Shown here in pieces: positions 22,322-25,428 of a stretch of 43,653 nt of DNA. Origin of the DNA: Bdellovibrio sp. ArHS (GTDB lineage Bacteria; Bdellovibrionota; Bdellovibrionia; Bdellovibrionales; Bdellovibrionaceae); contig NZ_JTEV01000017.1 of assembly GCF_000786105.1 (NCBI RefSeq), forward strand, positions 1 through 43,653, given 5' to 3'. Numbering within the stretch: the stretch's first letter is position 1; each line of letters opens with the position of its first letter. The notes under the pieces are model-generated. The model was not told the origin of the DNA. It was given only the letters and a program-made list of their open reading frames with translations, and did no database searches. The translations under genes were made by a program, and so were the position numbers.

Positions 22322-22903
22322 CTAGAAGTAACCTTCGTCATCTCCGAAGTCTTCATCGTCATCGTCATCATCATCGTCGTCGTCATCATCATCAGATGAA
22401 GAAATGTCATCTTCAGACTCTTCGTCCTCGATGGAACCTTCTTCTTCCTCTTCAGACTCCGTGTCCTCATCAGATTCAGTTTCCCACTCGTCGTCAGAAC
22501 CAGTGTCTTCTTCCTCGATGTCGATCATGCTGTCCATTTCCGCTTCGTCGTCGAAATCAGAAGAAATTTCTTCGATCGCAGGAGAAGTGGAAGGCTTCAA
22601 TACTTCAGCAGCACCCGCGCCAACAGCAGCGGCTTTAGCTACTTTTTCTTTCTTTGGGGCCGCTTTCTTTGCAGCAGGCTTTTTCGCAGCTTTTTTGGGA
22701 GCTGCCTTTTTAGTAGCGGCTTTTTTCGTCGCCGCTTTTTTAGCAGGCTTGGCTGCTTTTTTTGTTGCGGCTTTTTTAGCAGCTTTCTTCGCAGGTTTTG
22801 CGGTTTTCTTAGTTGCTTTTTTTGCAGCAGCTTTTTTAGCAGGCTTTTTCGCTGCTTTTTTAGTTGCGGCTTTCTTAGCTGTTTTCGCTTTTTTCTTTGC
22901 CAT
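22322..22903 (-). CDS. Histone H1-like lysine/alanine repeat protein with a poly-aspartate tail
   Basis: 193 residues from the ATG at 22903, which is preceded by AGGGAG. Residues 1-90 are almost only Lys, Ala, Pro and Thr, in repeats such as A-A-T-K-K-A-A and K-P-A-K-K-A, like bacterial H1/AlgP-type tails that bind DNA. A short neutral linker (91-110) follows. Residues 111-193 are extremely acidic, with Glu/Ser/Asp clusters, 13 consecutive Asp (171-183) and a final G-Y-F. It is thus a charge-bipolar, probably disordered protein: the acidic half could shield the basic half or bind another basic partner. The long plus-strand reading frame here is only the repeat read backwards. A nucleoid role is inference. 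Confidence 0.85.
   Translation of the reverse strand: MAKKKAKTAKKAATKKAAKKPAKKAAAKKATKKTAKPAKKAAKKAATKKAAKPAKKAATKKAATKKAAPKKAAKKPAAKKAAPKKEKVAKAAAVGAGAAEVLKPSTSPAIEEISSDFDDEAEMDSMIDIEEEDTGSDDEWETESDEDTESEEEEEGSIEDEESEDDISSSDDDDDDDDDDDDDEDFGDDEGYF
22331..22395. repeat. Trinucleotide (GAT/GAC) run encoding poly-Asp
   Basis: A run of CAT/CGT/ATC triplets on the plus strand encodes the Asp-rich tail of the H1-like protein. Such a run can change length by slippage in whole codons, altering tail length without a frameshift. Confidence 0.6.
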
Positions 22904-23022
22904 TGATCGCTCCCTAAAAATGCTAGAAGTCAAACTTCGTTCAAAAATGATTAGCCCCCTTAGACTAGCGACATTTAAGGGGGCAGGCAAAGAAAATTAG
23001 AATGAGATTTCGACGGTCTTGT

Positions 23023-24111: not shown

Positions 24112-24945
24112 TTAACCGATCAACTTAAGAGCAAGTTGATTTGATTGGTTCGCTTGAGCCAATGTTGAAGTACCAGCTTGCAACAAGATGTTGTTACGAG
24201 TCATCTCAGAAGAAGCCTGAGCTACGTCAGTATCACGGATACGGCTGTTAGCTGCAGACAAGTTCTCTTGAGCCACACCCAAGTTGTCAACTGTCGAAGT
24301 CAATCTGTTCTGAAGGGCACCAAGATTAGCGCGTGTTCCAGAGATTGAAGTCTGAGCGTTGTCCAACATTGCAAGTGAATCCTGAGCGCCTTCTTTGGAA
24401 GAGAAGTCAATGCCTGACAATCCTAGAGCGTCCAAAGTAGCTACGTTCTCACTCGCGTTGAAAGAGATACGATCTTCTTCAGCGTTGTTGAACAAACCAA
24501 CTTGGAAATCAAACTTCGGAGATGAACCATCTAGAAGTTTAGTAGTACCCCAAGTAGTTACAGAAGCGATACGTTGAATCTCAGATTTCAATTGTTGAAC
24601 CTCTTTATTCAACATGCCACGCTCTGTCTCACCAACAGTGTCAGAAGCTGCCTGGATGCCCAACTCACGAAGACGAACCACGATGTTACCGATCTCATTC
24701 AAGCCACCCTCAGCAGTTTGAACCATGGAGATACCATCGTTCGCGTTACGTTGAGCTTGAGTCGCAGAGCGGATTTGAGCTTTCAAACCTTCAGAGATCG
24801 CTAGACCAGCAGCATCGTCAGCAGCTTTATTAATACGGCTGCCAGAAGCCAGTTTCGCCATTGAATCGTTGATCGCTCTTTGTGAACCTACTAGGTTACG
24901 TTGTGCATTGATCGCGCTAATGTTAGTTGTTACTCTCATTCCCAT
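24112..24945 (-). CDS. fliC: Flagellin
   Basis: 277 residues, a short flagellin. The conserved N-terminal D0/D1 region opens M-R-V-T-T-N-I-S-A-I-N-A-Q-R-N-L and includes LASGSRINKAADDAAGLAISEGLKAQIR; the C-terminal region has AQENLSAANSRIRDTDVA and ends NQLALKLIG. The variable D2/D3 part is nearly absent, as in minimal filaments. It polymerises outside the cell to form the filament; in Bdellovibrio this lies inside a membrane sheath. Such genomes often have several flagellin genes; only one is here. GGAGGA is 7 nt before the ATG at 24945. A long leader with two mini-ORFs precedes it. Export is by the flagellar type III system, hence no signal peptide. Confidence 0.93.
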   Translation of the reverse strand: MGMRVTTNISAINAQRNLVGSQRAINDSMAKLASGSRINKAADDAAGLAISEGLKAQIRSATQAQRNANDGISMVQTAEGGLNEIGNIVVRLRELGIQAASDTVGETERGMLNKEVQQLKSEIQRIASVTTWGTTKLLDGSSPKFDFQVGLFNNAEEDRISFNASENVATLDALGLSGIDFSSKEGAQDSLAMLDNAQTSISGTRANLGALQNRLTSTVDNLGVAQENLSAANSRIRDTDVAQASSEMTRNNILLQAGTSTLAQANQSNQLALKLIG

Positions 24946-24959
24946 TTTAAATTCCTCCG

Positions 24960-24977
24960 TTAATATTTATTTTTCAT
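24960..24977 (-). CDS. Mini-ORF (Met-Lys-Asn-Lys-Tyr) in the flagellin leader
   Basis: Five codons plus TAA, preceded by AAGGAGGG (24986-24993) at 8-nt spacing. The stop codon ends just before the flagellin Shine-Dalgarno (24953-24958), so a terminating ribosome would sit over it. A leader peptide is possible; alternatively the upstream Shine-Dalgarno is a ribosome loading site only. Confidence 0.35.
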   Translation of the reverse strand: MKNKY

Positions 24978-25172
24978 TTTCAATACCCTCCTTGATTTGT
25001 TTTTTTGGCTAGGCAGAACCTACTCTGCTTTGCCGAGCACTGACATCCGAGTCTGTGCTTAAGTTAATGGCCTTTTTATTTTTCGGTTCTAAGAACCTTC
25101 GCTGGATCGTTCCGGTAGAGTTTCCTCTCGTTGTTCCTGCATCCCAGCGCTTGAACAATCTGTTGTTCTTTT

Positions 25173-25181
25173 TTATTTCAT
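25173..25181 (-). CDS. Minimal ORF (Met-Lys-stop) in the flagellin leader
   Basis: ATG-AAA-TAA preceded by AAAGGAGGG (25191-25199) at 9-nt spacing. Too short to code for a useful peptide; if read, it would act by placing ribosomes on the leader RNA. It may be chance. Confidence 0.25.
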   Translation of the reverse strand: MK

Positions 25182-25263
25182 CCTTGAAGGCCCTCCTTTC
25201 GGTAATACAGAGAGAGTGACCATCTCTCTCTGACTCCTTCTGAGTGAATCATTGATAGTCATA

Positions 25264-25321
25264 AGATCGGGATTTGAGACGATGTCTTGACAGGACGTCA
25301 GGCGGGTTTTGTTTTTTTTTT
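25264..25321 (-). promoter_or_regulatory. Candidate flagellin promoter with A-tract
   Basis: On the minus strand TCAA, 15 bp, then CCCGATCT (25271-25264) partly matches the sigma-28 pattern TAAA-N15-GCCGATAA. Ten consecutive As (25312-25321) lie just upstream, where an UP-like element would be. The match is moderate (8 of 12). Confidence 0.35.
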
Positions 25322-25352
25322 ACAATACTAGTCTAACGATAGATCGGGATTT
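25264..25352 (-). repeat. 12-bp direct repeat upstream of flagellin
   Basis: AGATCGGGATTT occurs at 25264-25275 and again at 25341-25352, 77 bp apart. Dyads flank both copies; beside the second is TTCAGGAC-N8-GTCCTGAA (25351-25374). Possibly tandem promoters or regulator sites. Confidence 0.45.
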
Positions 25353-25428
25353 CAGGACGTAAGATTGTCCTGAACCACTTAGATACAATACTTTCAGAGG
25401 GAAAAAAGGTGATTTACTGGCCGTAGGC

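Follow-up and report, generated by a model that had tools for sequence, protein, structure and literature searches.

The closest described systems are flagellin leaders bound by CsrA and a leader with CsrA-controlled upstream open reading frames (uORFs). In Bacillus subtilis, a GGA overlaps the Shine-Dalgarno (SD) sequence of hag, CsrA is reported to occlude this SD itself, and csrA and fliW lie in a flagellar operon (PMC6529632). In Campylobacter jejuni, the 45-nt 5'UTR of flaA folds into two hairpins whose neighbouring hexaloops present GGA and which show compensatory changes, a further GGA is found at the SD, and csrA and fliW are both present (PMC4894983). The non-flagellar iraD leader of E. 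coli, which operates without FliW, contains several ORFs, the last of which has CsrA sites at its SD and a stop that overlaps the iraD start (PMC5574718). The CsrA site selected by SELEX, RUACARGGAUGU, usually lies in a hexaloop with AC/GU as the closing pairs (PMC7652899).

Here, we analysed a 43,653-nt stretch of the genome of Bdellovibrio sp. ArHS (the window), which carries one of the six flagellin genes of this organism preceded by an unusual leader. This gene is the orthologue of fliC5 (bd3052), for which RT-PCR primers have been published and whose deletion leads to shorter flagella and slower swimming (PMC3464611). The name rests on exact primer matches, both primers being found unchanged in the orthologue of another genome (G006), while the names fliC2, fliC3 and fliC4 are used below by resemblance to published primers and gene neighbourhood, with no formal test. 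The fliC5 leader resembles hag in being a flagellin leader in which GGA overlaps an SD, with csrA and fliW in a flagellar setting, but it is longer and multi-hairpin, its CsrA sites are predicted from sequence, and the best candidate sites are a hairpin (H4) and the SD of a uORF rather than the flagellin SD. It shares with flaA the GGA-containing hexaloop, the compensatory changes and the GGA at an SD, yet differs by its length (~310 nt), its five hairpins and its uORFs; the Bdellovibrio leader that closely resembles that of flaA is the one of fliC4. The likeness to iraD lies in the presence of more than one leader ORF and in a short uORF whose own SD (CAAGGAGGG) contains a CsrA-type site; the stop of this uORF is situated 14 nt upstream of the flagellin start in most fliC5 leaders and 1 nt upstream in fliC4, whereas it overlaps the start in iraD. 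The features of the locus are as follows:

24112-24945, minus strand: flagellin gene, fliC5 orthologue, 277 aa, ATG at 24945
24954-24958, minus strand: flagellin SD, GGAGG
24960-24977, minus strand: mini-ORF2, ATG-AAA-AAT-AAA-TAT-TAA (MKNKY-stop), proposed coupled uORF
24986-24993, minus strand: SD of mini-ORF2, AAGGAGGG, also a CAAGGA motif
25007-25034, minus strand: hairpin H5, AGUAGGU loop, covarying two-part stem
25037-25058, minus strand: hairpin H4, GGA in the hexaloop of GAC-UCGGAU-GUC, covarying, candidate CsrA site
25069-25074, minus strand: AAGGCC, complementary to GGCCUU at 25192-25187, possible long-range helix closing a 5' domain
25153-25168, minus strand: hairpin H3, GAACAA-CAGA-UUGUUC
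25173-25181, minus strand: mini-ORF1, ATG AAA TAA, 2 codons (4 codons in four genomes)
25178-25199, minus strand: block AAAGGAGGGCCUUCAAGGAUGA, comprising the mini-ORF1 SD and a CAAGGA motif
25208-25232, minus strand: hairpin H2, conserved loop GGUCA
25232-25250, minus strand: hairpin H1, loop AGAAGGA in the genus
25265-25290, minus strand: sigma28 (FliA)-type promoter, TCAAG-N15-CCGATC, predicted start near 25258

By DNA search, each of the 24 genus genomes examined proved to contain the leader, with 73-89% identity to the window. In the alignment, near-invariant blocks surround a freely diverging middle, and this highly variable segment serves as an internal control for the conservation of the blocks. 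Searching with the block AAAGGRGGGCYYTCARGGA retrieved the leader, re-diverged, from 8 genomes of 6 other genera and 2 families. All but one of the block matches in the order precede flagellin genes, the sole exception being a chance match inside a coding gene, and a scan of GTDB genomes with the block pattern returned 10 Bdellovibrio-group records and 2 chance matches, unrelated, which lie in or against open frames. The same search of viral contigs gave no match; chance matches aside, the 25178-25199 block was found only in Bdellovibrionales flagellin leaders. When 141 genomes were scanned with a model of the H4/H5 twin hairpin, the only sites were those in fliC5 leaders (low-scoring matches in the ArHS genome were taken as chance), and an Rfam search of the leader gave no match at gathering score, with chance matches only at permissive scores.

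The sigma28-type box sets the predicted transcription start near 25258, so that the leader length of about 310 nt given in an earlier note on this DNA is right. Among the 24 aligned genus genomes, GTCCTGTCAA is invariant in this promoter and CCCGATC almost so, and GTCCTGTCAAGA is retained in most other genera; the consensus of attack-phase promoters is TTAAG-N16-CCGATA (PMC3627812). No conserved promoter-like box was seen between 24994 and the flagellin gene. Further upstream, at 25351-25374 of the window, an inverted repeat (TTCAGGAC-N8-GTCCTGAA) is kept in most of the genus and possibly corresponds to the terminator of the upstream gene or to a protein site. Other flagellin promoters are preceded by GGTCTAG..TGGAC repeats about 21 bp apart (5' of the sigma28 box at locus L003, and at loci L089-L094), elements which also occur in other families of the order and are possibly activator sites.

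The earlier note had described three SDs, two mini-ORFs and the flagellin start in this leader, at positions that all hold on the minus strand, and had called the ribosome sites near-perfect. SD strength was computed as the hybridisation of the 20 nt upstream of a start to the anti-SD: the mini-ORF1 SD (AAAGGAGGG, 25199-25191, minus strand) reaches -12.4 kcal/mol and that of mini-ORF2 -11.7 kcal/mol, both stronger than the SD of flagellin itself (-9.5 kcal/mol). The window contains 1,299 ATGs, of which only 0.23% and 0.69% have an upstream sequence at least as strong as that of mini-ORF1 and mini-ORF2, respectively.

The two mini-ORFs have distinct evolutionary fates. Mini-ORF2 and its SD are kept in 24/24 genus genomes and in 8/8 leaders outside the genus, the frame being open and short in every genus. 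Without exception it is five codons long in the 24 genus members, where codons 3-5 vary. Of the seven genera taken together, four have exactly five codons (P ~6e-4 given the base composition) and the remaining ones 6-9. Outside the genus the encoded peptides are MKFKY, MKKTN, MKKINY, MELKT (twice), MKDLNKLTL, MIKTN and MNDFNGG, all of them preceded by an SD-like sequence. The stop lies 1-11 nt from the flagellin SD in the genus (1 nt in most members) and 14 nt before the flagellin AUG in most leaders, without overlapping it; in two genus members this distance reaches as much as 24 nt. A frame that persists while its peptide changes would be expected of coupling and not of a sensing peptide; the translational coupling proposed in the earlier note is thus supported for mini-ORF2, which has its own SD, is short in every genus and, in most of the Bdellovibrio genus, stops 1 nt before the flagellin SD, and it is further backed by the fliC4 uORF, whose stop comes one base before the AUG. 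The fliC5 SD is predicted to pair with the 5' end of the leader in only about 17 of the 24 genus genomes; coupling by unfolding is therefore not general, and we make no claim of such a pairing.

Every genus member has mini-ORF1, either as ATG-x-stop or with two additional codons, and TAA, TAG and TGA all occur as its stop. The conservation of its SD/ATG pair holds within the genus but only in part beyond: the ATG is absent from three of the eight outside leaders (L155-L157) and from a second fliC5 copy in G019 (L125), while the CAAGGA motif stays, and a displaced start-stop pair is found nearby in two of these four leaders. This makes mini-ORF1 the weaker half of the finding: it is probably a by-product or a component of an RNA block that contains GGA, and not an essential ribosome site. 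At L125 (C1:1159080), the second gene is fliC5-like and the leader copy in front of it is degenerate.

H4 and H5 (25058-25007) are predicted to comprise three helices with 17 pairs in total, a fold supported by compensatory changes. Within the genus, standard pairs make up 98.7% of the alignment cells concerned, versus 25-46% when partners are slid, and 10 of the 17 pairs have changed on both sides; the loops UCGGAU (H4) and GUAGG (H5) are nearly invariant. Outside the genus, H4 retains an NGGA loop, but the stem that carries it is unrelated: in place of GAC/GUC, seven leaders have GGC/GCC and one has CGCA/UGCG; H5, which lacks GGA, is not kept, and other hairpins, some with GGA, are found instead. 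The H1 loop is a clean AGGA in most leaders outside the genus (e.g. GGAUCC-AGGA-GGAUCC), whereas its GGA is not cleanly presented inside. The possible AAGGCC/GGCCUU helix forms standard pairs in 22-24 of the 24 genus members with almost no covariation. A hairpin with the AGUAGGU loop is near invariant in fliC2-type leaders (L003, ~1450-1470) as well as in fliC5 leaders (25007-25034); an H4 look-alike in the fliC2 leader, GACUCGGAUG, was dropped since it is not conserved there.

Several observations point to CsrA as a probable ligand of this RNA: (i), in the genus, H4 reads AC-UCGGAU-GU, i.e. the shape of the CsrA consensus, and its GGA is predicted to be unpaired at 0.99-1.00; in G080, the H4 GGA is predicted to be paired. 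(ii), the next GGA after H4 lies within the mini-ORF2 SD, 57 nt away start to start, a spacing that falls inside the reported range of CsrA bridging (10-63 nt), and GGA is present both in this SD and in that of flagellin. (iii), csrA was found in 26/26 and fliW in 25/26 of the genomes searched, both adjoining flgL in the ArHS genome, and the CsrA sequence matches solved CsrA structures, including 1t3o and 5dmb chain D. The number of GGA in genus leaders is only slightly above chance and not significant in most members, and GGA-loop hairpins counted by a simple rule are not enriched, genus leaders not being separated from shuffles. Since such counts do not discriminate, the case for CsrA rests on position, loop exposure and covariation. 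A tie between flagellin output and filament assembly, as the earlier note had suggested, is plausible from these sequence data, through CsrA/FliW-type GGA hairpins that it had missed and not through a leader peptide. In the literature searched, which leaves out most subscription journals, we found no paper that links Bdellovibrio flagellins to CsrA or to regulation by their leaders, nor one on a CsrA/FliW system in this lineage.

The leaders of other flagellin genes give an independent view. At 16 fliC4 loci of the genus, tandem GGA-loop hairpins are found 20 nt apart, one stem showing compensatory changes. An SD comes next, and then a uORF; the start of this uORF shifts only by multiples of three, and its UAG stop lies 1 nt before the AUG. 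In the ArHS genome, this leader lies on contig C11 (~76806-76880, L004), and its uORF, of 4-6 codons, encodes the fliC4 SD. The fliC3 leaders of the genus carry a covarying AAGGAU-loop hairpin before the SD. With these independent cases, the argument for CsrA is much stronger than it would be from fliC5 alone; comparison across flagellins, which the earlier note had called for, thus extends the pattern to fliC3 and fliC4 but not clearly to the other three leaders of this genome.

A swimming predator makes few proteins as heavily as flagellin, and needs it only while filaments grow. We consider it probable that the fliC5 leader is a conserved regulatory RNA in which CsrA, antagonised by FliW, sets FliC5 translation, partly via the five-codon uORF. 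The transcript would start near 25258 from the FliA promoter, and CsrA dimers would occupy GGA sites in the H4 hexaloop and in the mini-ORF2 SD, the CAAGGA and AGGA sites further upstream being probably bound as well. Bound CsrA would stop ribosome loading at mini-ORF2, so that no ribosomes would terminate there and pass on to the flagellin SD, 1 nt further on in most of the genus. Export of flagellin would free FliW, which would remove CsrA, so that mini-ORF2 could be loaded and ribosomes could re-initiate on fliC5. The sequences themselves show the conservation, the RNA structure, the GGA positions, the persistence of mini-ORF2 and the presence of csrA and fliW, while CsrA binding, translation of mini-ORF2, the coupling and its direction are inferred.

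Strong upstream SDs and mini-ORFs could also merely gather ribosomes at a highly expressed gene, without any contribution of CsrA. That both mini-ORF SDs exceed the flagellin SD in strength, and that mini-ORF2 persists in all genera though its peptide changes, would fit such ribosome loading, but it leaves unexplained the conserved GGA hexaloops with covarying stems, likewise the fliC3 and fliC4 hairpins, and the SD1 block survives the loss of its AUG in several relatives; we therefore regard it as unlikely. The latter observation would rather suit the opposite scheme, in which CsrA or another protein binds the leader and the mini-ORFs are inert, their SD-like sequences being protein sites: CAAGGA persists where the mini-ORF1 AUG is gone (L155-L157 and L125), and the SELEX consensus contains GGAUG, so that an ATG can arise from a CsrA site. 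Inert mini-ORFs are at odds with the finding that no genus has lost the short open frame of mini-ORF2 and with a fliC4 uORF whose start moves only in frame, and we give this scheme slightly less credit than loading alone.

Two further explanations deserve much less weight. The invariant loops GGUCA, AGUAGGU and UCGGAU might act as a riboswitch or as pairing sites for a small RNA, since the GGA-less loops (H2 and H5) are as invariant as that of H4 and the AGUAGGU hairpin recurs in the fliC2 leader. Such a sensor is improbable: no Rfam match was obtained at a useful score, H5 is lost outside the genus and there is no compact common core. A c-di-GMP riboswitch and terminator control were likewise considered and dropped. 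Attenuation by stalling on the encoded peptide, for which the strong SDs of the mini-ORFs might speak, is refuted in its usual form and scarcely credible, as the peptides vary between genera and no leader hairpin is followed by a U run; the leader-peptide control evoked in the earlier note, if it acted through peptide sequence, is not supported on the same grounds.

If CsrA and FliW do act on the fliC5 leader as we favour, the Bdellovibrio lineage would possess a CsrA/FliW control system, and flagellin homeostasis and uORF coupling, each known from other systems, would be combined in a single leader. The fliC5 leader constitutes a new structured RNA family for annotation and lends itself to exact single-site tests. 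It is tempting to speculate, although this is rather doubtful, that the checkpoint acts on the coupled micro-ORF and not on the flagellin start, and that the abundant fliC5 leader, with its approximately nine GGA, also titrates CsrA and thereby helps the switch between attack and growth. Elsewhere in the window, an ORF at 22322-22990 (minus strand) is rich in alanine and lysine and has a long acidic tail, a composition that is histone-like.
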